IMG/VR virus record: IMGVR_UViG_3300025120_013226
Coordinates: 1-23,292 of that record
Strand: one strand, 5' to 3'
Source of the DNA: a virus
DNA: 23,292 bases
Shown here: piece after piece, positions 3,026 to 21,701 of the stretch
Numbering within the stretch: the first letter of the stretch is position 1
Layout: each line of letters begins with the position of its first letter
Position numbers and translations under genes: made by a program
Notes under the pieces: model-generated
Seen by the model: only the letters and a program-made list of their open reading frames with translations
Databases searched by the model: none
What the model was told of the DNA's origin: nothing

Positions 3026-3054
3026 TTGACATTACCACATTTCCATAGTATAAT
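3026..3054 (+). promoter_or_regulatory. Consensus sigma70-type early promoter
   Basis: TTGACA (3026-3031), a 17-base spacer and TATAAT (3049-3054) match the bacterial consensus perfectly. Expected transcription start is about 3061, virtually at the ATG at 3060, so the exonuclease mRNA would be leaderless or start from the ATG at 3072. Confidence 0.8.
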
Positions 3055-3059
3055 TGTGT

Positions 3060-3599
3060 ATGATCCACGCAATGATAGATCTGGAGACTTTATCCACAAA
3101 ACCAAACGCCACAATATTGACAATTGGTGGTGTGAAATTTGATCCATACACTAGGATAGAACCCTCACAGGGCATGTACCACAGAATAGATGTAGACTCG
3201 CAGACTGCCATGGGCAGAGATGTCATGGAAGAGACCGTTGAATGGTGGGGCAAACAGGCGGAAGATGTCAGGGAAGAAGCACTAGGTGATGACGATAGGA
3301 TTGACCTCAAATACTTTGTTAAGCAACTGAATAAGTGGTGTGTGGGTGTAGACGTGTTCTGGTGTCAAGGTCCATTGTTTGATTATGCAATACTACAAAA
3401 TTTTTATGCACAAATGAATGTGCCTGTGCCATGGAACTTCTGGCAGATTAGAGATTCGAGAACACTGGGCAGTCTGGTACCTAGAGATCCCAATGAGAAG
3501 AGGACAGGACTACACAATGCCTTAGAAGACTGCTACTTCCAAGCAAGGAAAGTGCAACAGATATTCCAGCAGTTAGGAATCAAGAATGCAAGATATTAG
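3060..3599 (+). CDS. DEDDh 3'-5' exonuclease-like protein
   Basis: The product is 179 residues with the DnaQ-like exonuclease signature. Motif I is IDLET (D7, E9), motif II lies in the segment around FDYAILQNF (D108), and motif III is GLHNALEDC with H152 and D157, the H-x4-D spacing of the DEDDh class. The short length and the opening MIDLETLSTKPNATILTIG resemble the Rv2179c-like 3'-5' exoribonuclease family that T4-like marine phages often carry. RNA or single-stranded DNA is the likely substrate; which one is not decided by the sequence. The ATG at 3060 is preferred over an in-frame TTG at 3054, which falls on the last base of the -10 box. It overlaps the next gene by 14 bases. Confidence 0.85.
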   Translation: MIHAMIDLETLSTKPNATILTIGGVKFDPYTRIEPSQGMYHRIDVDSQTAMGRDVMEETVEWWGKQAEDVREEALGDDDRIDLKYFVKQLNKWCVGVDVFWCQGPLFDYAILQNFYAQMNVPVPWNFWQIRDSRTLGSLVPRDPNEKRTGLHNALEDCYFQARKVQQIFQQLGIKNARY

Positions 3600-3945
3600 T
3601 TGGTATAAAATACAAGATCTATACACAATAGAAGGATTCAAAATCAAACACAGTAAAAGTCCAAAAACAAAATGGATTAGATTACCTTGTGTGTACAAAA
3701 TTAAAATAAACTCTAAGGTAATACATGTAGGAAGGTCTGACACTTGTAAGAAGCATGGCGGTGCTGAAAAAGTTAGAAAGGCCTTGGTGAACCTATTAAA
3801 TATCCATGAGTACAACCCATCTGTTCCAAAAACAAAATTATGGGATCAGATAAGGTTGCAACATAGACCAAATTCTAGTAATATAAAGATAGGAATTATA
3901 GAAACAGATGCAATCGGAAAAACCTATCTACAAGAAAGAATATGA
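3586..3945 (+). CDS. Possible GIY-YIG-type nuclease, low GC
   Basis: The product is 119 residues. The segment CVYKIK...IHVGRS (about 35-51) has the spacing of the GIY...YIG pair in GIY-YIG domains (here CVY and HVG followed by Arg-Ser), with basic residues after it (KVRKALVNLL). A Glu near the end (IGIIETD) could correspond to the metal-binding acid. The match is short and could be chance. By hand count GC over 3601-3900 is about 32 percent, against 40 percent or more in flanking genes, which suggests recent acquisition. It overlaps the exonuclease by 14 bases and the HIT gene by 38 bases. Confidence 0.6.
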   Translation: MQDISWYKIQDLYTIEGFKIKHSKSPKTKWIRLPCVYKIKINSKVIHVGRSDTCKKHGGAEKVRKALVNLLNIHEYNPSVPKTKLWDQIRLQHRPNSSNIKIGIIETDAIGKTYLQERI

Positions 3946-4309
3946 ACCCATAGGCAACTATGAGGAAAGCACATGGATGGGCAACGACACACCGTTCATG
4001 GAAACAGATTACACAGGAGTGTTCAGTGACAGATATCCATGTGTACCCGGACACACACTTTTCATCCCCAAGAAGAACACAGCAGAGTATGTTGGTAAAT
4101 CCTACGGACTGGCCTACCAATACGGCAACGACAAAGTAAAGTCAGGTGAGATAGCAGGATTCAATGTTGGAATGAACATAGGAATTTGTGCAGGACAAAC
4201 TATACTATGGCCACACATCCATTTCATTCCAAGAAAAGAAAATGACTCCGACGTGATTGGAGGAATGAGGCACGCACACCCAGGGGCGGACCACAAGAAA
4301 TATTACTGA
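3908..4309 (+). CDS. HIT-family (histidine triad-like) protein
   Basis: The product is 133 residues. The conserved HIT elements are present: PGHTLFIPK (about 47-55) and QTILWPHIHFIPR (about 97-109). The triad H-x-H-x-H reads W101-x-H103-x-H105, so the first His is Trp while the expected nucleophile (H103) and last His remain. HIT proteins with WPH in this place are known in marine T4-like phages. The family hydrolyses or transfers nucleoside monophosphates; the phage substrate is unknown. The start at 3908 overlaps the preceding gene by 38 bases; no better start is seen before the conserved region. Its TGA overlaps the next ATG (TGATG). Confidence 0.85.
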   Translation: MQSEKPIYKKEYEPIGNYEESTWMGNDTPFMETDYTGVFSDRYPCVPGHTLFIPKKNTAEYVGKSYGLAYQYGNDKVKSGEIAGFNVGMNIGICAGQTILWPHIHFIPRKENDSDVIGGMRHAHPGADHKKYY

Positions 4310-4563
4310 TGCCAAGGAAAGCAAGAAAGATCAATCCCATATATGTTTCCCCTGATGGTGGAGAGACGGTTTACGAGCAATTACCAAACGGTGACCGGAT
4401 CCTGGTCGAACAATCACAGAAGGCCATAGACGAAGAGACCGCATATGCGGAGGCAGAAATGGTGGGAGCAGAGGCCATAGCACTGCGAAGGAAATACCCT
4501 ACACTGCAAAAAGCCTGGGACAAATATCTTACCGTATGGCATTTAATCAACGAAAATGAGTGA
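4309..4563 (+). CDS. Conserved phage hypothetical protein (84 aa)
   Basis: The product is 84 residues, starting at the ATG in a TGATG overlap with the HIT gene. A basic start (MPRKARK) is followed by a beta-rich segment containing YVSPDGGETVYEQLPNG, which I recognise as a pattern of small T4-like marine phage proteins, and then two helices rich in Ala and Glu. No catalytic motif is present. Function is unknown; translational coupling to the HIT gene is the only contextual hint. Confidence 0.75.
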   Translation: MPRKARKINPIYVSPDGGETVYEQLPNGDRILVEQSQKAIDEETAYAEAEMVGAEAIALRRKYPTLQKAWDKYLTVWHLINENE

Positions 4564-4610
4564 TATGTACAACTATTCCTGTTTGAATTTTACCAGCAGT
4601 GTACGTTGCT

Positions 4611-4638
4611 CTAACACAGTTTAAAGGGGTGATTAAAT
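4611..4638 (+). promoter_or_regulatory. Probable sigma70-type early promoter
   Basis: CTAACA (4611-4616), a 16-base spacer and TTAAAT (4633-4638) sit six bases before the ATG at 4645. The hexamers are imperfect (4/6 each or so), but the geometry equals that of the consensus promoters at 5266 and 5691. The 81-base gap 4564-4644 contains no other gene I can support. Confidence 0.5.
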
Positions 4639-4644
4639 AGCATT

Positions 4645-5280
4645 ATGACCAAGTATGTTAGTATAATAGGCAACGGCGAAAGTAGGAGAGGGTTTGACCT
4701 CTCTCCATTGAAACTATTCAGTACAGTAATTGGTTGCAACGCAATCTATCGAGACTATGTCACAGAATATCTTTGTTGTGCTGACAAGCATATGTGCCAA
4801 CAGGCTGTAAATGCAGTTGGAAAAAGAACAACAATATACACCCGAGATAGATGGGCAGATCAATTTGCCATGTGGCCTAACGTGAAAGAATTTCCAAAAT
4901 TACCGTATGCCGGAGACAAGAGGCAGGACGAGCCATTCCACTGGGGCACAGGACCATACGCAGGTGTGTTGGGACTGACTTTCAAACCCAAGGCTATATT
5001 CATGGTAGGGTTTGACTTACATCCTTTAGAAAAAGATAAGATCAACAACATTTACACAGGGTCAGAAGGATACACATATATCAATAGACCGGTCGATCCC
5101 AGTTACTGGATATACCAGTTCCACAAGTTGATGGGATATTCCGATCCAGACACAAGGTGGATTGTGGTAAATCATGATCGTTGGGAAATGCCCAAAGAAT
5201 GGAGCCAACATGGAAATGTGTTTCAGGAAACCTACGACGGCATGGCCAAGTTCATCAACAAACAGTTGACAAAAAAATAA
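4645..5280 (+). CDS. GT42/DUF115-like putative glycosyltransferase, copy 1
   Basis: The product is 211 residues. It starts with a Rossmann-type strand and loop, VSIIGNGESRRGFDLSPL (5-22), then VIGCNAIYRDY (28-38). Later it has HWGTGPYAGVLGL...AIFMVGFDLH (99-126). This order (GNG-x-S, a CN-x-x-Y segment, then a Gly-Thr/Ser-Gly helix and a strand ending in G-x-D) is that of Campylobacter CstII-type sialyltransferases (GT42) and of MptE/DUF115 proteins. It shares these motifs with the 252-residue product at 9263. A role in modifying host or virion surface sugars is inferred. No Shine-Dalgarno at proper distance; a promoter-like pair lies directly upstream. Confidence 0.65.
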   Translation: MTKYVSIIGNGESRRGFDLSPLKLFSTVIGCNAIYRDYVTEYLCCADKHMCQQAVNAVGKRTTIYTRDRWADQFAMWPNVKEFPKLPYAGDKRQDEPFHWGTGPYAGVLGLTFKPKAIFMVGFDLHPLEKDKINNIYTGSEGYTYINRPVDPSYWIYQFHKLMGYSDPDTRWIVVNHDRWEMPKEWSQHGNVFQETYDGMAKFINKQLTKK

Positions 5281-5293
5281 TCCAATATAAAAT
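5266..5293 (+). promoter_or_regulatory. Sigma70-type early promoter
   Basis: TTGACA (5266-5271, inside the end of the preceding gene), a 16-base spacer and TAAAAT (5288-5293). Six bases then precede the ATG at 5300, which predicts a leaderless transcript for the DNA glycosylase gene. Confidence 0.65.
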
Positions 5294-5299
5294 TACTGT

Positions 5300-5710
5300 A
5301 TGATCAAACCAATGGTGGATCACCTGATGGTACAACAGCAACTGAAGGCTCCACACAAGAGATGGAAACACATGGTAGGTGTAATGTGCCTCAACCTCAC
5401 GTATCGTAAGCATGTTAAGATAATCTTACCAAAATTATTTGCCAGATATCCCAACCCAGAAGCATATCTGCGTGGCAGATTGAAGACACAACAGGAGATG
5501 CTGAAGCCGTTAGGTATGTGGGAAGTTAGATCAAAAAGAATTAGAAAAATGACAGAACAATATCTCTCATGGGATAAGAAAGAAGCCAGCGATCTGCACG
5601 GCATAGGCAAATACGGTTCTGACAGTTACCAGATATTCTTCTTTGATTATATTCCACCTGATGTACAGGACAAAGAGTTACGAAAATACATTGACAAACT
5701 CGTAGGATAG
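5300..5710 (+). CDS. MBD4-like DNA glycosylase (HhH-GPD superfamily)
   Basis: The product is 136 residues, about the size of the isolated catalytic domain of MBD4. The match is extensive: WKHMVGVMCLNLT (helix before the active site), KLFARYPNPEA, MLKPLGMWEVRSKRI, the helix-hairpin-helix LHGIGKYGSDSYQIF (99-113), and QDKELRKYIDKL, where D124 occupies the place of the catalytic Asp of MBD4 (PEDHKLNKY). MBD4 removes T or U opposite G. No Fe-S cysteine cluster is present, which separates it from endonuclease III. It probably repairs or edits deaminated bases in phage or host DNA; the exact target is inferred. A consensus-like promoter ends six bases before its ATG. Confidence 0.85.
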   Translation: MIKPMVDHLMVQQQLKAPHKRWKHMVGVMCLNLTYRKHVKIILPKLFARYPNPEAYLRGRLKTQQEMLKPLGMWEVRSKRIRKMTEQYLSWDKKEASDLHGIGKYGSDSYQIFFFDYIPPDVQDKELRKYIDKLVG

Positions 5711-5718
5711 TTTATAAT
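5691..5718 (+). promoter_or_regulatory. Consensus sigma70-type early promoter
   Basis: TTGACA (5691-5696), a 16-base spacer and TATAAT (5713-5718); the ATG at 5725 follows after six bases. The -35 box lies in the last codons of the DNA glycosylase gene. Predicted transcript start coincides with the ATG. Confidence 0.75.
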
Positions 5719-5724
5719 AGTAAT

Positions 5725-6030
5725 ATGTTTGATAAAATAAAAGATGGAGATCTAGTTACTCTTAAACTGACTTCAGGAGAAGAAGTTATTGCAAAATTTA
5801 TAAGCAAGGCCGACTCATACATCAGTATTGACAAAGCACTTGTACTAATGAACGGCCCTCAGGGTCTTGCATTTGGTACATTTTTCTCCACTGCTAAACA
5901 AGACGTACCATTCAACATATTCACTGATAAGATTGTGTCGATAGCACATATCAATGACAAGATTGCTGACGAGTATAACAGGGTATTCAGCAAGATTGAA
6001 GTGCCAAAGAAACCTAGCATAATCACATAA
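5725..6030 (+). CDS. Sm-like beta-barrel protein, unknown function
   Basis: The product is 101 residues. The opening (KDGDLVTLKLTSGEEVIAKF, about 6-25) is a pair of beta strands of the LSm/Hfq-like pattern, with further alternating hydrophobic strands (YISIDKALVLM, DKIVSIAHI) and a polar tail. Similar small proteins are common in T4-like marine phages. RNA binding is possible from the fold but no residue proves it. A perfect early promoter precedes it, and its stop overlaps the next start (TAATG). Confidence 0.7.
   Translation: MFDKIKDGDLVTLKLTSGEEVIAKFISKADSYISIDKALVLMNGPQGLAFGTFFSTAKQDVPFNIFTDKIVSIAHINDKIADEYNRVFSKIEVPKKPSIIT
5996..6023 (+). promoter_or_regulatory. Weak sigma70-like promoter within coding sequence
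   Basis: TTGAAG (5996-6001), a 16-base spacer and CATAAT (6018-6023), six bases before the ATG at 6030. It has the geometry of the neighbours, but the gene is also translationally coupled, so its use is uncertain. Confidence 0.3.
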
Positions 6031-6284
6031 TGGCACATTTTGACAAACACTCGAAAAGTATCACTGCTCTCGTAGACGTATCGGAAGCCATGTTGAACGC
6101 AATGGAGGAACACGGCATAGACCCCGAGACAGTATCAAACAGAAACGAGTTCACAGTGATGGTACACTTTCTTAAGAGCATCATCGACGGAGAATTAAAT
6201 ATACCAAATGAACTAACGGATCGCATCAGAGACACAGCGTTCCAGATAGACATGGATCAGAAGATCAACAAAAAGTTGAACTGA
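6030..6284 (+). CDS. Conserved small phage protein (84 aa)
   Basis: The product is 84 residues, mostly helical and acidic, with the segment VDVSEAMLNAMEEHGIDPETV and a later helix around TVMVHFLKSIIDGE. No membrane segment, cysteine cluster or catalytic motif is visible. It starts in a TAATG overlap with the Sm-like gene, so the two are probably made together. Function is unknown; I regard it as a real gene because of the coupling, codon use and compactness. Confidence 0.7.
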   Translation: MAHFDKHSKSITALVDVSEAMLNAMEEHGIDPETVSNRNEFTVMVHFLKSIIDGELNIPNELTDRIRDTAFQIDMDQKINKKLN

Positions 6285-6373
6285 TGGTCAAGAGGACTCA
6301 AGACTTTCAACCCTCTATAAACACTCTGCAAGTCATCAAAACTAGGAGAAACGATGACTTATTACTCAACTAA
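6284..6373 (+). CDS. Possible 29-aa leader-type ORF
   Basis: ATG 6284 overlaps the TGA of the preceding gene (TGATG). The frame runs 29 residues (opening MVKRTQDFQP) and ends inside the start of the PTPS-like gene. It fills the 69-base gap before that gene. The overlap signature and basic composition are suggestive, but the length is too small to be sure. Confidence 0.3.
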   Translation: MVKRTQDFQPSINTLQVIKTRRNDDLLLN

Positions 6374-6803
6374 AACATACGGACACAACATAGGACTATC
6401 TGCGGTATTCAGACAACCCAACGCAGATCACTCACACTGCCACTTACTGCACGGATACAGCCTGGCATTCAAATTCACATTTGGTTGCAAGGATCTTGAC
6501 GACAAGAACTGGGCTGTGGATTTCGGTGGACTAAAGCCTTTAAAGGCCTGGTTAGAAAATAAATTTGACCACAAACTGATATTGGATGAAAATGATCCAC
6601 ACCTAGACAAGTTCAAAGAGCTTGAAGGATTGGATCTTGCCGAGATAAGAATATTTGACGGTGTAGGTGCTGAGATGTTCGCCAAACACGCCTTTGGTGC
6701 CGCTGATGATATAATCAGAGCCGCAACAAATAATAGGTGCTATGTTGTTGAATGCGAATGCATGGAACACGGAGCCAACAGTGCCATCTATAGAAAAGAA
6801 TAA
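6354..6803 (+). CDS. 6-pyruvoyl-tetrahydropterin synthase/QueD-family protein, divergent
   Basis: The product is 149 residues and aligns end to end with PTPS/QueD-like proteins: SHCHLLHGYSLAF (27-39), AVDFGGLK (54-61), FDHKLIL (71-77) and a C-terminal EHGANSAIY. The family makes 6-carboxytetrahydropterin for queuosine or tetrahydropterins from dihydroneopterin triphosphate. Here C29 and H33 remain, but two of the usual zinc ligands appear changed (F19 for the first His and Y35 for the last His of HGH), as in other phage and alphaproteobacterial homologues of this type I recall. Real activity is therefore uncertain. AGGAG at 6344-6348 precedes the ATG at a normal distance, unlike the leaderless neighbours. 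Confidence 0.85.
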   Translation: MTYYSTKTYGHNIGLSAVFRQPNADHSHCHLLHGYSLAFKFTFGCKDLDDKNWAVDFGGLKPLKAWLENKFDHKLILDENDPHLDKFKELEGLDLAEIRIFDGVGAEMFAKHAFGAADDIIRAATNNRCYVVECECMEHGANSAIYRKE

Positions 6804-6816
6804 ATTCATACATGAT

Positions 6817-7926
6817 ATGGTTAGGGTAGGCCTAACGAATAAGGCCTACTACTTCCAGGTATACGACACACCGTTGGGGCATAGGTGGTTGGAAGCACTC
6901 AAAGACAATCTCAAACAACAGAGAATACTTGAAAAAAATTTCTGTTTCTTAGGCTTTGCTGATTCAAAAAGAGACCTACAGTTTCTTGTGGGTGAGCTCA
7001 ACAAGGGTGTGGCCCAAATTAATTCTTTCCAGTTTGAACCCCCATATGAAAGCATACATCCTTTTGTTGCAGACGATTTCCAGTATAGCAGTAGCCTGCC
7101 CATGGGCAGTTGGGATAACGGTGACATATCAAAGACTTTAGGTAAGAGACTCAAACACGAAAGTTGCAATCTTCTGCATAGATATTTTGAAGATCTACAA
7201 GGTACTGCATGGCAAATCTCCAAATATTACAAACAGGCAGACCACGAAACCAAATATGCCATCAGACAACTTAACAACATCTGTCATGAGATAGAAAGTT
7301 GGGTCAACTCAGATCGTAAAAAAGCAATAGAACCTGAATGGATGAGACCTTCTCAGATCACAACATTTTTGAATGCTCCTAGACATGATTTGCATGAGGA
7401 AGATTTTGATTTATTCAAACAGAACAGGTACGACAGAGAGTTGGGCGGTGTTTATCTACACTGGTCACAGGTAGGTAAGACATTGTTCGAGGTATTTAGG
7501 GACGAACACGCCCCCGTCATGACGGAAGCACTATGTTCAGAAATTAACCACCAAAAATATTACTCCGGCGAGTTTGACATCGAGTGGGGACAGACGATCA
7601 CAGAAACTGATCATGCCTTTAAAAAAGAAGAAATGGATCAATACAGGGCATGGCTCAAAAATAACGGATATGATTGGGAAGACCCTAAACTGTCTTTGGG
7701 TTACATAAAGATAGGACAAGTAGACATGCAGAGAACATTCGGCACGGATGCCTCCATCCAGGATGTACATCAAACAATGAATAATAATTTAAATATCACA
7801 AGTATTAGAACAATTACAGGTCCCACAACAGAGTGCGAATATCCTTATACTCTCGACAGTGACGATTGGAAACAGATACAAATAGAAAGATTGAGGCAAG
7901 GTTATGAATCACGTAGTATGCGTTAA
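6817..7926 (+). CDS. Conserved large T4-like marine phage protein of unknown function
   Basis: The product is 369 residues. I recognise the overall sequence as a widespread hypothetical protein of marine T4-like phages by segments such as FCFLGFADSKRDL, LLHRYFEDLQGTAW, NNICHEIESWV and GGVYLHWSQVGKTL. No transmembrane segment is seen. It is rich in Trp, Tyr and His, with several acidic clusters, but no enzymatic motif I can name. The ATG at 6817 is chosen because homologous sequence starts there; an in-frame ATG at 6742 would lie within the preceding gene. It overlaps the glycosyltransferase by 23 bases. GC is low (about 30 percent over 6901-6960). Confidence 0.8.
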   Translation: MVRVGLTNKAYYFQVYDTPLGHRWLEALKDNLKQQRILEKNFCFLGFADSKRDLQFLVGELNKGVAQINSFQFEPPYESIHPFVADDFQYSSSLPMGSWDNGDISKTLGKRLKHESCNLLHRYFEDLQGTAWQISKYYKQADHETKYAIRQLNNICHEIESWVNSDRKKAIEPEWMRPSQITTFLNAPRHDLHEEDFDLFKQNRYDRELGGVYLHWSQVGKTLFEVFRDEHAPVMTEALCSEINHQKYYSGEFDIEWGQTITETDHAFKKEEMDQYRAWLKNNGYDWEDPKLSLGYIKIGQVDMQRTFGTDASIQDVHQTMNNNLNITSIRTITGPTTECEYPYTLDSDDWKQIQIERLRQGYESRSMR

Positions 7927-8602
7927 GTGGGGCAACAAATATATTTCGAAATATGCCAATGTCCTGAACAGCATGGTCAAAAGGCACACCACAGTGCCTT
8001 ATCAATTCCACTGTCTCACAGACGATCCCACAGGATTAGATCCAGAAATAAACATTATAAAACTTCCCAACGATCCATGGATCAAATCATGGTGGAGCAA
8101 GTTGTGGATGTTCGCACCTGAAATGCCTTTGAAAGGCAACATACTGTTCTTTGATCTTGACGTGGTCATCTTTGACAACATAGATTCACTGTTCACGCAT
8201 AACCCAGGCAAGTTCAACATCATAAGGGATTTCAACAGGTGCAGGATCAAGGACTGGAAACTGTCAAACTCCAGTTGTATGCGTTGGGAGGCAGGCACAA
8301 TGAATTACCTATGGAACGAGTTCAATGAGAGATCGGCACAGATCATGCAACAGAATCACGGAGACCAGGACTGGATAACCAAGAGAGCCAAGGATGACAT
8401 CACATGGTTCCCAGATGAATGGATAAGATCATACAAATGGGAGTTGATAGGTCTCAAGGACACTAAACTACTGACCAAGGACGGCAAGAAATGGTTCAGA
8501 GAACCAATAAAAATTAAACCAGGAAATCGTGTCGCAGTATTCCATGGATCACCAAACCCTATGGAAAGTGGAGACCAGTGGGTAATAGACAATTGGATGT
8601 AA
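7904..8602 (+). CDS. GT8-like glycosyltransferase (GT-A fold)
   Basis: The product is 232 residues. The first strand (NHVVCVKWGNKY) and the segment FHCLTDD are followed by SKLWMFAPEMPLKGNILFFDLDVVIFDNID (65-94). The D-x-D motif DLD (84-86) in the FFDLDVV context is the nucleotide-sugar and metal-binding site of GT-A enzymes, and the layout is closest to family 8. Later VAVFHGSPNP resembles the C-terminal H-x-x-G-x-x-K-P-type motif of that family. Donor and acceptor are unknown. It overlaps its neighbours at both ends, and with the two GT42-like genes it makes three candidate sugar transferases within 6 kb. Confidence 0.8.
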   Translation: MNHVVCVKWGNKYISKYANVLNSMVKRHTTVPYQFHCLTDDPTGLDPEINIIKLPNDPWIKSWWSKLWMFAPEMPLKGNILFFDLDVVIFDNIDSLFTHNPGKFNIIRDFNRCRIKDWKLSNSSCMRWEAGTMNYLWNEFNERSAQIMQQNHGDQDWITKRAKDDITWFPDEWIRSYKWELIGLKDTKLLTKDGKKWFREPIKIKPGNRVAVFHGSPNPMESGDQWVIDNWM

Positions 8603-8919
8603 TGACCAGTTACGGCAAAGTAAAAGTAAAGAGAAACAATCCTAGGCTAGACGAAGTCCCGGAGGACTGTGGATACATGCAACAGTTCGAGTACAATGTA
8701 GATATGAATTCGAATGGCATAATGGGCGACTGCATAGACTGGTGCCAGCAAAACTGTGAAGGCAAGTGGGGTTGGTGGTTCGAACCCGTGGGCGAGATAG
8801 AGAATCCTGCAAACCACTGGGAGCACCAGAACGCATACATGAGTTTCGAGAAGAAAATAGACGCCACTAGATTCTGGATGTCTGTTGGAATACAGAACAG
8901 CAACAAGAGAGATGTATAA
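8602..8919 (+). CDS. Conserved small Cys/Trp-rich protein, unknown
   Basis: The product is 105 residues, starting at the ATG that overlaps the glycosyltransferase stop (TAATG). The middle has CGYMQQFEYN, GDCIDWCQQNC and GKWGWWFEP, with four Cys and several Trp, followed by a region rich in His, Phe and Glu. The cysteine spacing (C-x3-C-x3-C) could bind a metal, but it fits no zinc finger I know. Its neighbour is an Fe-S carrier. Function is unknown. An in-frame ATG at 8578 would overlap more of the previous gene and is less likely. Confidence 0.7.
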   Translation: MTSYGKVKVKRNNPRLDEVPEDCGYMQQFEYNVDMNSNGIMGDCIDWCQQNCEGKWGWWFEPVGEIENPANHWEHQNAYMSFEKKIDATRFWMSVGIQNSNKRDV

Positions 8920-8920: not shown

Positions 8921-8927
8921 TAATAGT

Positions 8928-14453: not shown

Positions 14454-14480
14454 TAATTACATTAGGTTTATAGAATTACA

Positions 14481-14488: not shown

Positions 14489-14512
14489 TCTGCAACAAAA
14501 GGAATTATAAAA

Positions 14513-16060
14513 ATGGCAAGACAACCAATAAACATAGGATCAAGTGCAAACGACGGCACGGGTGATCCGTTAAGAACAGCATTTGACAAGATCAATGACA
14601 ACTTCGTAGAACTTTACGGTTCTGACAACGACATCAACACACTTGATGCAAATCTCGATGTAAACAACTTTGCAATCACTACAGGTGTCACAAATGGTAA
14701 TATCACCATCACACCAAATGGCACAGGAAACATAGATCTAGGATCAATCACAATCAACGGAAGCCAAATAAGTTCCAATGATTCAACACAGATCACAATA
14801 GCAGACAATATCCAGACAACAGGCACAGTGAACGTAACCGGTGCCACAACACTTGGATCTACACTGGCCGTGGGAACATCTCTGGCTCTGGCGACAGGTG
14901 CAACAGTCACAGGCATAGACAACGGTGCGTTGGGCTCAAGTGCGACACTATTGGCCACACAGGGTGCAATCAAAACTTATGTTGACGCTCAGGTGACAGC
15001 ACAGGACTTAGACTTCACATGTGATGACTCGACAACACTTTCGATCGACTTGGACTCTGAGAGTTTACAGTTCTCTGGTGGTACAGGTATCACGACGGCA
15101 GGTACAGGTAAAACTGTCACTGTTGCAATAGATTCAACAGTGGCTACTCTTACAGGATCTCAAACCTTAACAAACAAAGTTTTAACCAACCCAACGATAA
15201 ACGCGGCAACAATGACTGGTGCGATCGCGATCGATGGTGTCACAATAGATGACAACGCTATCAAGGCCAACGCCTCAGACGCAGATCTAGAATTAGACGG
15301 CAGTGGCTCAGGACACACGAAGATACTGGCAAACGCAACAGTGGTAGGAACACTAAACACTGCGGACATCGCCACAACAGGAACACAAACAATCACAGGA
15401 CAATTAGATGTTGATGGTGTTAGAACCAAAGACAACAAGATCACAACAAATGCCACAAATGCCAACCTTGAACTTTCGGCCAACGGAAGTGGTGTGGTGG
15501 ACATCCAGAATGCTATGACCACAGTTGGACAAACTATTACCGGAAATGTTGCAATCACAGGACAAGCAGATGTGGATAACATCAGATTTGATACCAACAC
15601 TATCAGCACAACTAATAGTAACGGTGGACTGATAATAAGTCCAAACGGAACAGGTGCAATCACACTTAATTCTGGAACTGTATCAGTACCAGGAGTCATG
15701 TCTATAGCATCAGCGATGATTGATAACACTTTATTCATGGAAACAGGTTCAAAAATACAGGCCAACGTAACCAACGAAGACGTTGTAATAGAATCAAATG
15801 GTACAGGATCTGTTGTTCTTGATCAAGTTTCTATTACTGACAACAAGATTTCTACCCATGTGTCAAATGCTGACTTACAGTTGGACACAGACGGAACAGG
15901 TTTAATAGACTTTAGGACTGATACCCAGACAACTGTTGGTGCTGTCGGTGCCGCAACGCACTTGCCACTTGATTCTGCAAATGAAATCAGACCTGTTGGT
16001 TACCTAAGAATTAAGATCTCAGGAACAGAATACGTAGTGCCATATTTTAACGCATCGTAA
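14513..16060 (+). CDS. Tail-fibre-like structural protein with beta repeats
   Basis: The product is 515 residues. The start INIGSSANDGTGDPLRTAF...KINDNFVELYG (6-37) is the shared motif. The body carries repeated units of about 30-40 residues such as TIDDNAIKANASDADLELDGSG, TKDNKITTNATNANLELSANGSG and ITDNKISTHVSNADLQLDTDGTG (quoted in part), and a stretch GALGSSATLLATQGAIKTYVD that is typical of phage fibre shafts. The last 30 residues (RPVGYLRIKISGTEYVVPYF) look like a compact end domain. It lacks the 90-residue module of the two upstream genes. It has its own exact late promoter and a purine-rich ribosome site. Confidence 0.8.
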   Translation: MARQPINIGSSANDGTGDPLRTAFDKINDNFVELYGSDNDINTLDANLDVNNFAITTGVTNGNITITPNGTGNIDLGSITINGSQISSNDSTQITIADNIQTTGTVNVTGATTLGSTLAVGTSLALATGATVTGIDNGALGSSATLLATQGAIKTYVDAQVTAQDLDFTCDDSTTLSIDLDSESLQFSGGTGITTAGTGKTVTVAIDSTVATLTGSQTLTNKVLTNPTINAATMTGAIAIDGVTIDDNAIKANASDADLELDGSGSGHTKILANATVVGTLNTADIATTGTQTITGQLDVDGVRTKDNKITTNATNANLELSANGSGVVDIQNAMTTVGQTITGNVAITGQADVDNIRFDTNTISTTNSNGGLIISPNGTGAITLNSGTVSVPGVMSIASAMIDNTLFMETGSKIQANVTNEDVVIESNGTGSVVLDQVSITDNKISTHVSNADLQLDTDGTGLIDFRTDTQTTVGAVGAATHLPLDSANEIRPVGYLRIKISGTEYVVPYFNAS

Positions 16061-16096
16061 TAGTTAAAAAAAACATACACAGTCCCACGGACAAAA

Positions 16097-16255
16097 ATGA
16101 GAAAACGTTACAACGACCGTAATAGACATAAGACCGCACATTCCGAGATACGACGCTTGGAGGAGGCCATACGACGGGCTTCTGACGAAGTCGAACGTGA
16201 AGATATTAGACAACACCTAGAACACTGGATTCGTACACAGAATAATAGCCAGTAA
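16097..16255 (+). CDS. Small basic helical protein (52 aa)
   Basis: ATG 16097 to TAA 16253-16255 gives 52 residues: a basic start (MRKRYNDRNRHK), then a long amphipathic helix rich in Arg and Glu (EIRRLEEAIRRASDEVERED), ending HWIRTQNNSQ. It fills the gap between two structural genes and has a coding look (high Arg/Glu, regular heptad-like pattern). A weak purine site (CGGA) lies before it. Similar short helical proteins occur at this place in T4-like marine phages as far as I recall. Function is unknown. Confidence 0.65.
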   Translation: MRKRYNDRNRHKTAHSEIRRLEEAIRRASDEVEREDIRQHLEHWIRTQNNSQ

Positions 16256-16260
16256 TCGCC

Positions 16261-16268
16261 AATAAATA
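16261..16268 (+). promoter_or_regulatory. T4-type late promoter box
   Basis: AATAAATA followed by a leader containing AAGGAG (16276-16281) and ATG 16289. Spacing to the ribosome site and start is what a late promoter needs. Confidence 0.65.
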
Positions 16269-16288
16269 CCCTTGTAAGGAGTACAGTA

Positions 16289-18802
16289 ATGGCAACACCA
16301 GTGTGGACAACCACGGCAGGTAAAATTGCAACTATAGATGAACAAGTCGCATATTCTCTTCAACTAGAGGCGAACACCAGCGACTCAACGGCCATCGCTT
16401 ACTCCGTGATAGCAGGGAGCCTACCCGCAGGAATGCAGGTAACATCCACAGGCTTACTAACAGGTACTCCGGCTGAGGTTGCCAAGAGAACTCTTTACAC
16501 TTTCGTCGTGCGAGCCACGGCCGGTACCACTATCACAGACAGGACTTTTTCTTTAGACGTGCAAGGTGCGGACGCACCCACGTTCACAACAGCATCGGGA
16601 CAACTGCAACTGGATGATTCTACCAGTGTTGGACTTTACTGGGTAATTGATGGATCTAGTATATCACTTCAGATGCAGGCCGCCGACACAGACACACGTG
16701 CAGGACAGTCTCTTGTGTATGAGATTATGCAAGGAACATTACCACCAGGTGTGACCATGAGTAAGACAGGACTGATATCCGGTATAGTCGCACTAACAGA
16801 CGATCAAAGATTCGGAGTGCGTGGAGGGTATGACGGAAGTGGTAACGATGACGAGTTCGACGGCACGTTTGACCGTACTGTCACAACAAAAAGCATAAGC
16901 AAGAATTTTGATTTCATAATCAGGGTATCTGATGGTACCAGTTTTGTTGAACAGAACAATAGTATATTTGTATACAGTGCGGACTTTTGGAGAGTTTCGA
17001 ACACAGCAATAACCATAGACAAAAGTGAAATAGACGGCTCGGCATTGACCATGGATCTAAGTGCAAACAGGAGACCTGTATTCAGAACAGGTTCAGATCT
17101 TGGTACATTCAGGCATGACAACGCCTTGGTCATAAAAATTGATGTGGAGGATTTTGATCCAACACAAGGTGATCTAGAATATTCAATACAGTCAGGCTCA
17201 TTGCCGGCAGGAGTGTCCATAGACATCAATTCAGGTGAACTGTACGGGCAATTAGCCAGACAGGCCGCAATAGAAGTTGACTACACATTCACTGTCAGAG
17301 CTAATAGAGTTATAAGCACAGGTATTAATGTATTCACAGATCAAGGATTCACTATGAAAGTGATTGGTGAGTTGGACATAGGAATAGCATTCACCACACC
17401 AACAGTGATCGGAACATTGAAGGCCGACATACCAAGTTTACTATCTCTAGAAGCGGTGGCAGAAGAAACTAATAGAGTACTGAGTTATACAAAAACATCC
17501 GGAACTTTGCCGCCAGGTATCACACTATCAGAGCAGGGAAATCTTGTGGGGACAATAGACCCAAGTGACTTCACAGACTCGACAAGAGCATACACATTCA
17601 CGGCTTCTGTTAGTGACCAATACCAGTCATTGGCAACATCAAAAGAATTCACATTGAACATAGATATTCCATACACACAGATAGAGTACGGAAACATGTC
17701 AGGACATGCAACATCATTCATTGATCAGAACATATTCTACAGCATAGCTCAAGATCCAAACATCAACTCCGTTGAAAATATATACAGACCAGAAGATAAA
17801 AACTTTGGCATGACGGACAAGCCAGACATGTTGATGATGTCAGGTCTTGAAGCACAAACTCTGACAGTGTTCCAACAACAGATGGAACAAAGCCATGCTC
17901 CCAAGACTTTATACTTTGGAGATTTAAAAACAGCAGTGGCCAAAGAAGGAACGACTACAAAATACGAAGTGGTTTACATAGAGATCAACGATAGCATGGT
18001 CAACAAAAACGGACAAGCCGTTTCTAGTTCGATAAGATTAAGAGATGCAATAGCCAAACCATTATTAGGACCTAGGGCATCCAGCATGAATGCCACTGCA
18101 GATTACGTGGAGTACGAAGTAACAACTGACGGAGGACTTTCGTTCAGTACAGCAGGATCCAAAGTTAGATACGCTAATCAGTTGAGTGCAGATCTTGGAT
18201 TCATAGAAACACTATATCCTAATGCCGTGGCTAATATGAGGTCGAGAATGAAAAGCCTGGGACACAAAGAATGGGACTATCTTCCTTTATGGATGAAAAC
18301 CACCCAGTCGGGAGACCTAGCACCATTAGGTCATGTAATGGCAGTTCCGATCTGCTACTGTAAACCAGGAACGTCAGGATTGGTTAAGAAAAGAATCGAA
18401 GACAAGGCATTAAATTTCAAGAACATAGCATTCACGATAGATAGATATGTGGTGAGTAAGAGTAAGGTGGCGACAGAAACTTTCACAGCGGACGGTACAA
18501 CGACGGCATTTGTAGTTGACGAACTTGTACACCAAGAAGATATATTGGTCAAAGAAGGTACTACAACAGTATTACCAGGTGAGGGGTGGACTGCTTCAGG
18601 ATTTGCTGGTCATCTTAATCCAACAGCAGATACAGAATTGAGATCGGCCGATCATGAATACGGCATATCACTATCATACAATACCACTACCAACAAAACA
18701 ACAATAACTTTTACCAAAGAAGTGCCGTCAGTAGGCACTATTATAAAGGTGGAGAGAAGCAACGATAAATATCTTAAATTTAGAGATAAAGGAATACAAT
18801 AA
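16289..18802 (+). CDS. Large virion structural protein with four Ig-like (He_PIG/cadherin-like) repeats
   Basis: The product is 837 residues. The N-terminal half holds four putative Ig-like repeats, each marked by the pattern Y-x-x-x-x-G-[ST]-L-P-x-G-[MVI]-x-[ILV]-x-x-x-G-x-[IL]-x-G: SVIAGSLPAGMQVTSTGLLTG (about 38), EIMQGTLPPGVTMSKTGLISG (about 145), SIQSGSLPAGVSIDINSGELYG (about 298) and TKTSGTLPPGITLSEQGNLVG (about 400), each shown in part. The C-terminal half (about 455-837) is a different domain, well conserved in marine T4-like phages, ending in a beta-rich part with FTADGTTTAFVV. Such proteins are large structural components, probably surface or fibre-associated with carbohydrate-binding potential. 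It is preceded by a late box and AAGGAG; its stop overlaps the next start (TAATG). Confidence 0.8.
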   Translation: MATPVWTTTAGKIATIDEQVAYSLQLEANTSDSTAIAYSVIAGSLPAGMQVTSTGLLTGTPAEVAKRTLYTFVVRATAGTTITDRTFSLDVQGADAPTFTTASGQLQLDDSTSVGLYWVIDGSSISLQMQAADTDTRAGQSLVYEIMQGTLPPGVTMSKTGLISGIVALTDDQRFGVRGGYDGSGNDDEFDGTFDRTVTTKSISKNFDFIIRVSDGTSFVEQNNSIFVYSADFWRVSNTAITIDKSEIDGSALTMDLSANRRPVFRTGSDLGTFRHDNALVIKIDVEDFDPTQGDLEYSIQSGSLPAGVSIDINSGELYGQLARQAAIEVDYTFTVRANRVISTGINVFTDQGFTMKVIGELDIGIAFTTPTVIGTLKADIPSLLSLEAVAEETNRVLSYTKTSGTLPPGITLSEQGNLVGTIDPSDFTDSTRAYTFTASVSDQYQSLATSKEFTLNIDIPYTQIEYGNMSGHATSFIDQNIFYSIAQDPNINSVENIYRPEDKNFGMTDKPDMLMMSGLEAQTLTVFQQQMEQSHAPKTLYFGDLKTAVAKEGTTTKYEVVYIEINDSMVNKNGQAVSSSIRLRDAIAKPLLGPRASSMNATADYVEYEVTTDGGLSFSTAGSKVRYANQLSADLGFIETLYPNAVANMRSRMKSLGHKEWDYLPLWMKTTQSGDLAPLGHVMAVPICYCKPGTSGLVKKRIEDKALNFKNIAFTIDRYVVSKSKVATETFTADGTTTAFVVDELVHQEDILVKEGTTTVLPGEGWTASGFAGHLNPTADTELRSADHEYGISLSYNTTTNKTTITFTKEVPSVGTIIKVERSNDKYLKFRDKGIQ

Positions 18803-19365
18803 TGGCAAGTAAAATAGTACCAAGCAATATAAGTCCAACTTTTCCGGTTGCAGGACAGGACAATAGTTCTCAAGGATTCAGAGACAACTTCAGTGCCATT
18901 AAACGAAATTTTATAGAAAGCAAAACCGAGATAGAGGCGATGCAGACAAACAAGGCCAATCTAGATAGTGCCAGTAATTTCACAGACAACGAAGTTTCAA
19001 GAGCAAAGTTCAAGGACACATCAGAAACTATCTATGCACACGGCAGTGTGTCTAGTGGTAGTGTTACTTTAAATCATGAGAATGGTCATTATCAAACTTT
19101 AACTATAACAGCAGATACTACGTTTGCATTCACTAACTTTCCAACAGGAGCGTTGGGTAGAATTATCTTAGATATAACAGTGGCCGCAACCTCAACAGGT
19201 ATCTTAACTTTTCCAAGTGCTGTGATCAAAGCAGACAATGTTACAGGTAGTGACGGAACTTCAGATCAAGCCACTATAGGAATAGGTAGAGCTTTGTTTG
19301 AATTCATGTCGCCAGACGGTGGCACAACTGTGCTGATGCATCAACTCGGTAAACAATACGTTTAA
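18802..19365 (+). CDS. Virion structural/fibre-like protein (187 aa)
   Basis: The product is 187 residues. The N-terminus (PVAGQDNSSQGFRDNFSAIKRNFIESKTEI, about 14-44) is a variant of the N-terminal motif of the preceding fibres (D-N-F-x-x-I and N-F-x-E). The rest is beta-rich with GSVSSGSVTLNHENGHYQTLTI and FEFMSPDGGTTV, like end domains of cyanophage-type structural proteins. It is coupled to the Ig-repeat protein by TAATG, with AAAGGA upstream (18788-18793). Probably a partner of that protein in the tail; inferred. Confidence 0.75.
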   Translation: MASKIVPSNISPTFPVAGQDNSSQGFRDNFSAIKRNFIESKTEIEAMQTNKANLDSASNFTDNEVSRAKFKDTSETIYAHGSVSSGSVTLNHENGHYQTLTITADTTFAFTNFPTGALGRIILDITVAATSTGILTFPSAVIKADNVTGSDGTSDQATIGIGRALFEFMSPDGGTTVLMHQLGKQYV

Positions 19366-19380
19366 TAATTAAGGAGTCGT

Positions 19381-19632
19381 ATGTACTTCCATCCATTACA
19401 AGAAGAAATAGGCAACATGTCGGAAGAGGATATCTCTAAACGTATCAAAGAGCTGTCAAGAAAAGTTGCTATCGCAAGGCGTGGTAGGAATCCTGAGTTA
19501 CTTTTCAATCTCCAACAAGCACTAAAGACATACCAAGATGCCATCAGACAGAAACGTATTGAGGAATGGCACAAGAACAACAAGAAGTTAAGGAACGAAC
19601 CAGACCTAGGCGACCTGGTCAACATCGACTAG
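19381..19632 (+). CDS. Conserved small helical protein (83 aa)
   Basis: The product is 83 residues, nearly all helical and highly charged (EEDISKRIKELSRKVAIARRGRN, then a second helix with LQQALKTYQDAIRQKRIEEWHKNN), with an acidic tail. The pattern suggests a coiled-coil or helical hairpin. A strong ribosome site AAGGAG (19371-19376) precedes the ATG. Similar proteins sit near structural genes in T4-like marine phages; role unknown, perhaps assembly. Confidence 0.75.
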   Translation: MYFHPLQEEIGNMSEEDISKRIKELSRKVAIARRGRNPELLFNLQQALKTYQDAIRQKRIEEWHKNNKKLRNEPDLGDLVNID

Positions 19633-19644
19633 TAAATAGTTTTG

Positions 19645-20286
19645 ATGTCAAATACATTTTCTTGGAAGACAAAATTTAAAAGTATAATCATAGTTGACGG
19701 AGAACTATTCTCTAATGAATACAATCTAAACATTTCTCTCACTCCACACACAGCAAGTCTAAAAGAACAGACTGATTATTTTGAAAGACTGAAAAATCTT
19801 TTTGAACAGGTTTTTGCAAACACTATCACAACATGGAGAGACGAACCTCTCTACCATACATTAAAGAAAAGTTCTACAAACAGATTCATTGAATTACCAA
19901 AACCTCCCTATGACCAGATCATGGCCGCTGTGTGTTTTTGTAAAGCAAACTCAGTTTTAGATTCTGTCATCACTATTAATAACATCGAACTATCATCATG
20001 GCAGGGCGATGGTATTACCTACAAGGTTGACAAAGATAGCAAAGAGCTTATACTATTAGATAGACCCGATTGGTTTTCAGCAAAATACAGTAAATTCGAT
20101 CCATGGTGGTTGAGAGCGGACACGGCAACATATGATCAAGAACTTGACAAAGGAATATACACTGGACATTTTAGTTGGAACAATCAAAAAATACCAGTTG
20201 ACAAGACCCATGACTATCATGCTAAAGTATTTGAGTTCCAACCAAAGGTTTTAGATGGCGGAAAAGATAAAAACAAAAATAAATGA
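19645..20286 (+). CDS. Conserved phage protein of unknown function (213 aa)
   Basis: The product is 213 residues. It has FSWKTKFKSIIIVDGELF near the start, Trp-rich segments (SSWQGDGITYKV, DPWWLRADTATYDQEL) and a lysine-rich tail. No membrane segment or known catalytic motif is seen. Its sequence is AT-rich (about 30-35 percent GC in 19681-19800) compared with the structural genes. ATG 19645 is taken over an in-frame TTG at 19642; TAAATA lies six bases before it and there is no Shine-Dalgarno. It overlaps the next gene by 32 bases. Confidence 0.7.
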   Translation: MSNTFSWKTKFKSIIIVDGELFSNEYNLNISLTPHTASLKEQTDYFERLKNLFEQVFANTITTWRDEPLYHTLKKSSTNRFIELPKPPYDQIMAAVCFCKANSVLDSVITINNIELSSWQGDGITYKVDKDSKELILLDRPDWFSAKYSKFDPWWLRADTATYDQELDKGIYTGHFSWNNQKIPVDKTHDYHAKVFEFQPKVLDGGKDKNKNK

Positions 20287-20782
20287 TCACGGTGATGTAA
20301 TATTCTCAGAAGAGGATGTTATTGACTTACTGTACACTGATCCAGACTTCAACATATCAAAACTCTATTTCAACGACATAGACAAGTATTCAGACAGCCT
20401 AAAAGAGTTAGGTATAGATCTACCAGTGATCAACACAGCACCCAAGAGACCAGCACCTGCAGAATTTGACAAACAGAACTGTGACAACTGGCACATGCCT
20501 GAGAAGTATTACCAAATAAATGTTTTAGAATGGTTGCTTGATAAATGTCAGAACGATGAAGAGAAATTACAAGTGCAGATGGAATATGATCTGTTTGAGA
20601 AGAAACAATTCATACGTGTGTTACAGTTCTTGATTTACTTTGTAGACACGTTGAGAGCAAATAACATGGTCTGGGGTGTAGGCAGAGGATCAAGTGTGGC
20701 CAGTTTCTGTTTGTTCTTGATAGGAGTACACAAGATCAATCCTATGCTGTACAATTTAGATATCACTGAATTTTTGAGATGA
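20255..20782 (+). CDS. Short DNA polymerase III alpha (DnaE)-like protein without catalytic motif
   Basis: The product is 175 residues. The C-terminal part (about 108-175) matches DnaE just before its catalytic aspartates: EYDLFEKKQFIRVLQFLIYFVD, then VWGVGRGSSVASFCLFLIG with the dNTP-binding GRGS (143-146), then NPMLYNLDITEFLR. In DnaE the P-D-F-D-x-D metal site follows at once, but here TGA ends the gene. The N-terminal 100 residues are not a PHP domain and are unrecognised. It therefore cannot be a polymerase by itself. It may bind nucleotides or a replication partner, or mimic the host enzyme; this is inferred. I recall similar short proteins in marine T4-like phages, so it is probably not a recent truncation. 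Confidence 0.75.
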   Translation: MAEKIKTKINDHGDVIFSEEDVIDLLYTDPDFNISKLYFNDIDKYSDSLKELGIDLPVINTAPKRPAPAEFDKQNCDNWHMPEKYYQINVLEWLLDKCQNDEEKLQVQMEYDLFEKKQFIRVLQFLIYFVDTLRANNMVWGVGRGSSVASFCLFLIGVHKINPMLYNLDITEFLR

Positions 20783-20810
20783 TAAGTAATTATAATAGGA
20801 GCATATTATT

Positions 20811-21236
20811 ATGGTAGCAAGAGCACCCAGAAAAAGAATGTACAGAACCATGCAAGGGCGTATGGTAGACATAGAAAAACTTAGAGCGGCCAACGAGTCT
20901 GTACAGGCAGTTGGTAATATGAACGTAAACGCCAAGGGAGATGTGCTAGGAGCGAGTGGACAGATAGTGACCCCAAAGGAAGCAGTGATCAGGAAGTACT
21001 ACGAACAGCCAAAAGGCATGGTCAGTGACACTCCAAGCAAAGGCAAACCAATGCCAGCACCAAAGGCAGAGCCAGTGAAGGCTGTACAGAAGATGACCCC
21101 TGTGGCATCAAAGCCAGCACCCAAGACAGTAGTGGCAACACAGCCTAAAAAAATTGAACCAGTCGAGACTGTCAAACCCAAAGCAGAGAGCACAGCCAAA
21201 AAAGGCATAGATGCGGCACTTGACGGATTGGAATAA
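20811..21236 (+). CDS. Conserved phage protein with Lys/Pro/Ala-rich disordered tail
   Basis: The product is 141 residues. The first 65 residues are conserved in type (RKRMYRTMQGRMVDIEKLRAANE, then AVGNMNVNAKGDVLGASGQIV), familiar to me from T4-like marine phages, where it is unnamed or called structural. Residues about 70-130 are a low-complexity run of Lys, Pro, Ala, Val and Thr, surely disordered, and the end is a short helix (GIDAALDGLE). AGGAG (20798-20802) precedes the start. A virion or scaffold role is possible; not shown. Confidence 0.7.
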   Translation: MVARAPRKRMYRTMQGRMVDIEKLRAANESVQAVGNMNVNAKGDVLGASGQIVTPKEAVIRKYYEQPKGMVSDTPSKGKPMPAPKAEPVKAVQKMTPVASKPAPKTVVATQPKKIEPVETVKPKAESTAKKGIDAALDGLE

Positions 21237-21248
21237 ATCTGTTAAAAT
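21220..21248 (+). promoter_or_regulatory. Sigma70-type early promoter before the co-chaperonin gene
   Basis: TTGACG (21220-21225), a 17-base spacer and TAAAAT (21243-21248), five of six matches in each box. The ATG at 21258 comes nine bases later, so the leader would be about three bases. Confidence 0.6.
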
Positions 21249-21257
21249 AATCCTACA

Positions 21258-21701
21258 ATGGGACAACTAGAAGATTTACAAGCAAAAGGTTTTGGATCAC
21301 ATGGTGGCAAGGAATACACCGTTGATTACGACATCACACCCCTGAAGAAGAGAGTACTAGTTTCAGACATGCACTTTGGTGAAACGAAATCCAAGGGCGG
21401 AATCATACTTACAGATGATGACGGATCAGAAGGTGGAATACATCCTAGATGGGGCAAGGTTTATGCCATCGGCGATCAACAGGAAGATGTTAAAGTCGGA
21501 GAGTGGGTCATGGTGTCACATGGACGTTGGAGCAGAGGATTCAAGATCAAGAAAAAAGGCATTGAACTAGAGGTAAGAATGATAGATGAAAACGATATCT
21601 TACTTGTATCAGATGATGAACCAGAGTTCAATTCTAAACAGGCAGGATACATCAACATGGGCGGTGCCCAACAGATGACTAAACTACCTGGCAATGACTA
21701 A
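21258..21701 (+). CDS. GroES-like co-chaperonin (gp31-type function)
   Basis: The product is 147 residues. ITPLKKRVLVSDM (26-38), the mobile-loop-like GETKSKGGIILTDD (41-54), WGKVYAIGD (65-73) and VKVGEWVMVSHG (78-89) follow the order of GroES strands and loops. An N-terminal extension (1-20) and a C-terminal tail (about 115-147) are additional. In T4, gp31 replaces GroES so that GroEL can fold the major capsid protein; this protein most likely does the same. No Shine-Dalgarno; it has an early-type promoter and overlaps the next gene by eight bases. Confidence 0.85.
   Translation: MGQLEDLQAKGFGSHGGKEYTVDYDITPLKKRVLVSDMHFGETKSKGGIILTDDDGSEGGIHPRWGKVYAIGDQQEDVKVGEWVMVSHGRWSRGFKIKKKGIELEVRMIDENDILLVSDDEPEFNSKQAGYINMGGAQQMTKLPGND

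Follow-up and report, generated by a model that had tools for sequence, protein, structure and literature searches.

Does a phage promoter that ends only a few bases before a start codon give a message beginning at the AUG itself? The question was raised by a 23,292-nucleotide stretch of viral DNA (IMG/VR record IMGVR_UViG_3300025120_013226, positions 1 to 23,292; hereafter the window), a fragment of a marine phage that sequence matches place in the T4 superfamily, with the core genes of its relatives nearest to those of jumbo phages. Two kinds of promoter box stand there directly before ATG codons, one sigma70-type and one T4-late-type. Judging from the sequences, promoter position very probably decides the translation mode, a near box giving a leaderless message and a distant box one usually led by a Shine-Dalgarno (SD) sequence. 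With a box (host sigma70 TATAAT or gp55-type TAAATA) ending 5-9 bases before the ATG, the polymerase would start on, or 1-3 bases before, the A of the AUG, and the mRNA, having neither leader nor SD, would be translated by leaderless initiation on the host ribosome. With a box about 20 or more bases away, the mRNA would usually carry an SD and follow ordinary initiation.

Promoter boxes at the start codons of the window

Hereafter, the gap is the number of bases between the end of a box and the ATG. The sigma70-type boxes were the following.

3026-3054, plus strand: sigma70-type promoter, TTGACA (3026), 17-base spacer, TATAAT (3049-3054); gap 5 to ATG 3060, exonuclease-like gene
5266-5293, plus strand: sigma70-type promoter, TTGACA (5266), 16-base spacer, TAAAAT (5288-5293); gap 6 to ATG 5300
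5691-5718, plus strand: sigma70-type promoter, TTGACA (5691), 16-base spacer, TATAAT (5713-5718); gap 6 to ATG 5725
21220-21248, plus strand: sigma70-type promoter, TTGACG (21220), 17-base spacer, TAAAAT (21243-21248); gap 9 to ATG 21258, GroES-like gene
8915-8920, plus strand: -10-like TATAAT with no clear -35; gap 7 to ATG 8928, Fe-S biosynthesis family gene

A preliminary description of this DNA had reported the first four, with TTGAC[AG], a spacer of 16-17 and TATAAT or TAAAAT ending 5-9 bases before the ATG, and had noted the lack of an SD at these starts. All four were found just so, and no SD tetramer occurred 3-12 bases before 3060, 5300, 5725 or 21258. These boxes are real and beyond chance. 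Five sites in the window match at least 10 of 12 positions and have a spacer of 16-17 and an ATG 5-9 bases on, that at 1727 standing before an ATG within the cyclase gene; 150 dinucleotide shuffles gave 0.77 such sites on average and never more than 4. A looser 9/12 scan of window positions 1-20000 was at chance (50 sites, 48.5 expected), so that weaker versions cannot rest on the consensus alone, and the number of such weak boxes was rejected as evidence. Weaker sigma70 versions had been proposed before five other starts. That before 8928 is a TATAAT at gap 7 with no evident -35; the boxes before 2759, 4645 and minus-strand 10294 proved to be late-type TAAATA, and the promoter before 6030 was discarded, the supposed box being the 3' end of the preceding gene's coding sequence. 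Late boxes before 2077 (gap 8) and 19645 (gap 6), absent from that description, were also found, giving the list below, in which conservation refers to the homologous upstreams described further on.

2063-2068, plus strand: T4-late-type box TAAATA; gap 8 to ATG 2077; gap 8 in 23 of 25
2748-2753, plus strand: T4-late-type box TAAATA; gap 5 to ATG 2759; gap 5 in 50 of 68 distinct upstreams with ATG
4634-4639, plus strand: T4-late-type box TAAATA; gap 5 to ATG 4645; gap 5 in 76 of 88, no TAAATA within 30 bases in 11 of 88
10300-10305, minus strand: T4-late-type box TAAATA; gap 5 to minus-strand ATG 10294; gap 5-6 in 56 of 57
10307-10312, plus strand: late-type box TAAATA in the opposite direction; gap 13 to ATG 10326, without SD
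19633-19638, plus strand: T4-late-type box TAAATA; gap 6 to ATG 19645
14483-14503, plus strand: for contrast, distant late box and SD AAGGA; box 24 bases before ATG 14513
16263-16281, plus strand: for contrast, distant late box and SD AAGGAG; box 20 bases before ATG 16289
18766-18793, plus strand: for contrast, distant late box and SD AAGGA; box 30 bases before ATG 18802

The late boxes are TATAAATA-like, have no -35 and match the T4-type late promoter; the 2759, 4645 and minus-strand 10294 starts share TTAAATA followed by five bases. None of the ten near boxes of the window is accompanied by an SD. The pairing of late boxes with SD sites, as first described, was therefore retained for 14513, 16289 and 18802 and dropped for the late boxes near an ATG.

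Conservation was followed in 148 related loci from IMG/VR (L002-L149), collected in two scans, some of them sharing one contig. Homologous upstreams were compared by right-alignment on the start codon, leaving out those shorter than 50 bases, those whose alignment did not begin at query residue 1-3, and distinct upstreams in which the aligned start was not ATG (6 of 75 for 5300, 3 of 71 for 2759 and 1 of 89 for 4645). Of the 79 distinct upstreams of gene 3060, 66 had the site at gap 5-6 and 2 at gap 2-3, while 11 had no site of at least 9/12; the site before gene 5300 lay at gap 6 in 64 of 69 with ATG, and that before gene 5725 at gap 5-8 in all 88. Where a site was present, the spacer was 16-17 in 66/68 (3060), 66/69 (5300) and 88/88 (5725). 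The ATG itself was kept in 79/79 (3060), 88/88 (5725), 88/89 (4645) and 57/57 (minus-strand 10294) distinct homologues, yet also in 90/92 for 6030, which has no near box. For gene 8928 the relatives' consensus is GATAATTAATAGT-ATG, the box reading GATAAT at gap 7. Gene 21258 had no homologue among 149 loci, so the conservation of its promoter rests on two contigs, both with TATAAT at gap 8.

Four further features of these boxes were recorded. The segment 10294-10326 is a near-palindrome of two adjoining late-type boxes for divergent genes, conserved in relatives, and the 31 bases between the two start codons (10295-10325) hold late boxes facing both ways. Upstream of gene 4645 (4600-4645), conservation extends far beyond a promoter in distinct relatives, as GTTTAAAGGGGTGATTAAATAGCATT. 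At 23181-23245, TTGACT, a 17-base spacer and TATAAT are followed directly by a GGAATCC...GGTTCC hairpin and a T run, possibly a short RNA gene or an orphan promoter. A TATAAT also lies 14 bases before ATG 20811 (20791-20811), with AGGAG directly after the box; a start 7 bases after this TATAAT would put the SD outside the message, so the box may not be a promoter in use.

Positional excess across the lineage

The main set comprised the window and ten relatives (G001-G010), 403 kb in all, in which 547 genes gave 494 distinct upstreams after exclusion of genes less than 60 bases from a contig end and of upstreams identical over 40 bases. Genes were called from codon usage and the 5'-most ATG, blind to the motifs and with ATG starts only; an earlier, homology-based choice of starts had let in some antisense open reading frames. 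Three longer relatives, G015 (138.7 kb), G016 and G017, were located via their DNA polymerase (with the window and G001-G010 they make up loci L150-L169, L196-L199 and L451-L468). A replicate drew on 76 further loci, all related by homology to the polymerase region in G001 and G015-G017; it hence represents other viruses, not other genes.

In the main set, TAAATA at gap 5-8 was found 76 times, against 4.7 expected from other gaps and 0.0 from internal ATGs; TATAAT at gap 5-7 occurred 33 times (0.8 and 0.4 expected, respectively), and TTGAC at gap 28-31 occurred 40 times (1.5 and 3.4). The TAAATA excess recurred in G015, G016 and G017 (18 vs 1.5, 9 vs 1.3 and 8 vs 0.8) and in the 76-locus replicate (28 vs 0.7), and TATAAT was in excess in the three longer relatives (6, 4 and 3 vs 0.4 each). 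When hexamers were ranked by gap without any motif being supplied, TTGACA at 28 and TAAATA at 5 led in the main set; the top three in G015 were TAAATA at 6, TAAATA at 5 and TATAAT at 6, and TAAATA at 6 came first in G016 and second in G017. The comparison with control sequence proposed in the preliminary description thus gave a clear excess before ATGs over shuffles, other gaps and internal ATGs alike.

Could the boxes simply be squeezed against genes in compact intergenic regions, with variable starts and a distance that means nothing for translation? Phage genomes are tightly packed, and as few as 26-34 bases separate some divergent start codons. The pooled marine set nevertheless has 4 TAAATA boxes at gaps 0-4, 111 at 5-8, 23 at 9-19, 50 at 20-32 and 12 at 33-45, and four jumbo relatives considered below hold their late boxes about 20-35 bases away, mostly with an SD; we regard crowding as a very unlikely explanation.

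Grouping the homologous genes with ATG starts of the window and G001-G008 gave 154 families. The late box was mostly near in 28 and mostly far in 7, and TATAAT was mostly near in 9 and far in 4; with 28 near-late and 9 near-TATAAT families, the excess is not mere redundancy. These figures also bear on the original proposal that only the sigma70 set is leaderless, marking early genes, and that late genes use an SD. The distant, SD-bearing late boxes at 14513, 16289 and 18802 agree with it; however, near late boxes outnumber near TATAAT boxes both in upstreams (76 vs 37) and in families (28 vs 9), and they include that of the terminase large-subunit gene of a relative. The larger class at leaderless distance being late-type, the equation of leaderless with early and SD with late was given up, and we consider it extremely unlikely. 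What stands of the original idea is that two initiation modes appear in one genome, the geometry predicting leaderless messages.

Shine-Dalgarno exclusion and the predicted start site

The presence of an SD, taken as AGGA, GGAG or GAGG at gap 3-12, varied with promoter position. In the main set the near boxes rarely had one (late, 4 of 76 upstreams; TATAAT, 1 of 37), unlike the distant late boxes (31 of 41; Fisher 1.8e-15). G015 showed the same contrast (0/18 near-late, 5/12 distant; P 0.006), as did three cultured phages, HTVC008M (1/16 vs 9/11), Mosig (0/8 vs 15/23) and Melnitz (0/3 vs 19/27).

The distant late boxes allowed the start site to be predicted independently of any ATG. In the marine set, a pyrimidine-purine step was found at bases 5/6 after the box in 42 of 68 cases, the highest of nine positions (next, 27/68; P 6e-8 against 0.3). 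The phrase "positions -13/-12 in place of TA", used of the T4 late box in PMC2988020, suggests that this box spans -13 to -6. The step would place +1 six bases after the late box, in agreement with that span, and a gap of 5 would therefore set +1 on the A of the AUG. Base 6 is most often A at distant late boxes in T4 (66% of 29) and in the four jumbo relatives (61% of 237), the full step at 5/6 occurring in 48% and 43%, respectively.

Near late boxes at gaps 5, 7 and 8 conform to this prediction. At gap 5, a pyrimidine stands at base 5 of 98% of 41 late boxes (89% of 19 in HTVC008M and Mosig). The 5/6 step is present in 90% of 10 gap-7 and 96% of 23 gap-8 boxes, for which leaders of 2 and 3 bases are predicted. 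For TATAAT the pyrimidine peak lies one base further, at base 6, in 90% of 31 gap-6 boxes and, as the highest position, in 68% of 22 distant boxes. The modal gap is correspondingly 5 for the late box and 6 for TATAAT, a one-base difference that is what a common start on the AUG requires of two promoter types. Overall, a pyrimidine immediately precedes the ATG of 72% of the 156 genes in the leaderless class and of 34% of the 249 in the SD class (P 1e-13); for HTVC008M and Mosig the corresponding figures are 92% of 25 and 43% of 170 (P 2e-6).

Several observations weigh against a leaderless reading of the near boxes or narrow its reach. TTGAC showed no significant excess in G015-G017 (2, 2 and 1 observed), and the 76-locus replicate had TTGAC at chance, a weak TATAAT signal (2 vs 0.2) and one distant late box only. 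At the 37 gap-6 late boxes (window, G001-G010 and G015-G017) the 5/6 step was present in just 24%. It was also present in only 37% of the 38 distant late boxes of HTVC008M and Mosig, so that the start-site signature is clear only in the window's lineage. Distant late boxes of G016 and G017 seldom had an SD (2/10 and 1/7) and these two genomes therefore give no SD contrast, while the box before 10326, at gap 13, has neither an SD nor a leaderless distance. Of six long relatives, three have a gp55 homologue, but none was detected in the window, in G001-G010 or in the other searched loci, all of which are fragments, and gp33 and gp45 queries taken from HTVC008M had no match in the contigs, likewise fragments. 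The late boxes here would be read by a gp55-type factor.

Finally, 432 of 837 genes, about half, have neither an SD nor a near box. This last figure, together with the AU-rich, SD-less starts that are known from other bacteria, speaks for a different role, in which near boxes would be AU-rich ribosome-binding elements in longer leaders transcribed from further upstream, and not promoters. Against this stands the TTGAC that accompanies the near TATAAT boxes at sigma70 spacing (gap 28-31, 40 vs 1.5-3.4); moreover, the same TAAATA stands 20-30 bases before SD genes, out of ribosome-binding range, and the modal gaps of the two box types differ by one base, as promoter geometry predicts. A ribosome-binding role is accordingly judged unlikely.

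Cultured phages, hosts and translation factors

The affiliation of the window was read mainly from its relatives. G015, and not the window itself, provided the T4-like core set: polymerase, gp55, gp46, gp47, portal, protease, capsid, sheath and terminase (names assigned from matches to coordinates in HTVC008M and T4). In the list of best cultured matches, the polymerase of G001 is 50% identical to that of Phosso, 45% to Atu_ph07 and 42% to 121Q, and the terminase of G015 is 56% identical to that of PA5oct and 47% to Phosso, the cultured phages so matched having genomes of 287-490 kb. The G001 contig carries this polymerase, to which that of G015 is 95% identical, together with a homologue of window gene 5725, and so ties the window to the jumbo-like group; the window probably derives from a jumbo genome. 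Some window genes are about 30-50% identical to pelagiphage genes.

These jumbo phages, PA5oct, 121Q, Phosso and Atu_ph07, are among the closest cultured polymerase and terminase matches listed and all four have a gp55-like gene. They differ in that their late boxes lie about 20-35 bases away, with an SD in 26/48, 37/50, 46/64 and 42/74, respectively, and no excess was seen at gap 5-8 (2, 5, 0 and 2 observed; 6.0, 6.2, 6.8 and 8.7 expected; Atu_ph07 analysed over 460 of 490 kb). T4 late promoters resemble the near boxes in that their TATA box lies roughly one helical turn upstream of the start and a -35 is lacking (PMC2988020 and PMC7892883). In T4, unlike here, TAAATA at gap 5-8 was found in 0 of 252 upstreams, 22 of 38 counted boxes lay at gap 20-32, and an SD stood beside 23 of 30 distant late boxes.

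The late half of the arrangement was met in culture in HTVC008M and Mosig, where TAAATA at gap 5-8 occurred 16 times (1.8 expected) and 8 times (2.6 expected); the difference is that neither shows an excess of TATAAT at leaderless distance (1 observed each). With the annotated starts of HTVC008M, 12 of 40 upstream TAAATA occurrences stood exactly 5 bases before the start, among them those of the genes at 6280, 7562, 11972 and 18943. In the unprompted ranking, TAAATA at 5 came first in HTVC008M, an SD hexamer followed by ATAAAT and TAAATA in Mosig, and an SD in T4. Gap 5-8 held no TAAATA in Syn9 and chance numbers in P-SSM2 (6 vs 6.2) and Melnitz (3 vs 3.1, all three at gap 5). The predicted late leaderless form was thus found, among ten cultured phages, in the two pelagimyophages, and otherwise in the window's marine lineage. 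Distant late boxes of the cyanophages rarely had an SD (Syn9 7/22, P-SSM2 5/57), and their 9 near-box genes showed no pyrimidine excess before the ATG (33%).

Raw genome-wide counts of TAAATA-N5-ATG against the reversed pattern were 14 vs 4 in HTVC008M, 11 vs 3 in Mosig, 5 vs 3 in Melnitz, 10 vs 5 in T4, 3 vs 3 in Syn9, 6 vs 6 in P-SSM2, 0 vs 0 in phiM12 and 2 vs 6 in S-CAM3, the raw excess of T4 not being at gene starts (0/252). The Melnitz paper gives 31 early and 15 late promoters. As an anecdotal comparison, the gene pairs being different, divergent start codons with two late boxes are 26 bases apart in HTVC008M, whereas T4 pairs are 47-50 apart.

Two possible causes of the arrangement were considered. 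The first was a host rich in leaderless genes. Over 400 kb of a Pelagibacteraceae genome (402 upstreams), TATAAT occurred 2, 2, 1 and 1 times at gaps 5-8, the unprompted ranking listed 22 entries, none of them a -10 box, and TA[TA]AAT was mildly raised at gaps 3-7 (24 in all); this is the host family of HTVC008M and Mosig and may not be that of the window. The second was a phage-encoded translation factor. IF3 acts against leaderless messages. It was detected (PF00707) in 3 of 13 records, the leadered jumbo phages Phosso (PV764938), Atu_ph07 (NC_042013) and 121Q (KM507819), and was not found in PA5oct, HTVC008M, Mosig, Melnitz or six marine fragments. PA5oct is leadered yet has no IF3, so the match between factor and trait is imperfect; in addition, the marine phages are represented by incomplete records. 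S21 (PF01165) was present in 6 of the 13 records (HTVC008M, Mosig, Melnitz, PA5oct, Atu_ph07 and Phosso) and an S1 domain in none; the six marine fragments, incomplete as they are, had no S21, IF3 or S1.

Leaderless messages in phages are familiar mainly from isolated examples, lambda cI among them. Messages of the Thermus phages P23-45 and phiYS40, like that of lambda cI, start at the AUG; none of these is known to be made from a T4-type late promoter. PMC9031893 mentions lambda cI and states that an AUG at the 5' end, or close to it, can be bound by 70S ribosomes; kasugamycin spares leaderless messages (PMC5230787). A close precedent is cellular: in the 'TA-led' leaderless bacterial genes of Zheng et al. 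2011 (PMC3160421), a -10-like box lies about 10-12 bases before the start codon, and the same step was taken from box position to leaderless message; in bacteria a box so placed is an established mark of leaderless genes. Those are cellular genes with sigma70-like boxes, whereas the present case concerns a phage and two promoter classes, one of them a phage-specified late type. PMC5312081 describes phage transcripts as often leaderless, citing an E. coli study. Among the matches listed in open-access PubMed Central (PMC), none was seen to describe promoters placed for leaderless messages, whether in pelagiphages, in cyanophages or among late promoters of the T4 type; in PMC9004378, matched by pelagiphage and leaderless together, the latter word was met in the title of a reference.

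Two promoter systems, the host sigma70 type and the phage late-sigma type, would thus converge on one placement relative to the start codon throughout a lineage; leadered relatives in culture allow comparison, and the cultured HTVC008M carries the late half. It is conceivable, and we offer it tentatively, that late promoters were shifted onto the start codon in one marine lineage of the T4 superfamily (host-type ones too in this case) and, perhaps in a separate event, in the pelagimyophages, a large share of the promoter-headed messages bypassing the SD, and that the switch adapts initiation to infection in marine hosts; the detection of IF3 in three leadered jumbo relatives but in none of the six marine fragments gave rise to this idea. 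The system may offer a direct way to study why, and at what point, a virus turns to leaderless initiation, and could help in practice with the calling of phage start codons and promoters.

Regarding the rest of the window, megablast of positions 3000-22600 against cultured phages gave no match, no Rfam family reached the gathering score, and a transfer RNA search in 23 relative loci found none. The guanine-plus-cytosine content is 39-46% in the window and G001-G010, against 29% in a SAR11 genome. The segment 50-2062 encodes the adenylate/guanylate cyclase-like gene, which is common to HTVC008M and Melnitz. At 10326-16060 lie four tandem genes, presumably tail-fibre-like, whose products have related N-terminal stretches (INIG or LNIG... 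in three, TGDxxR in all).

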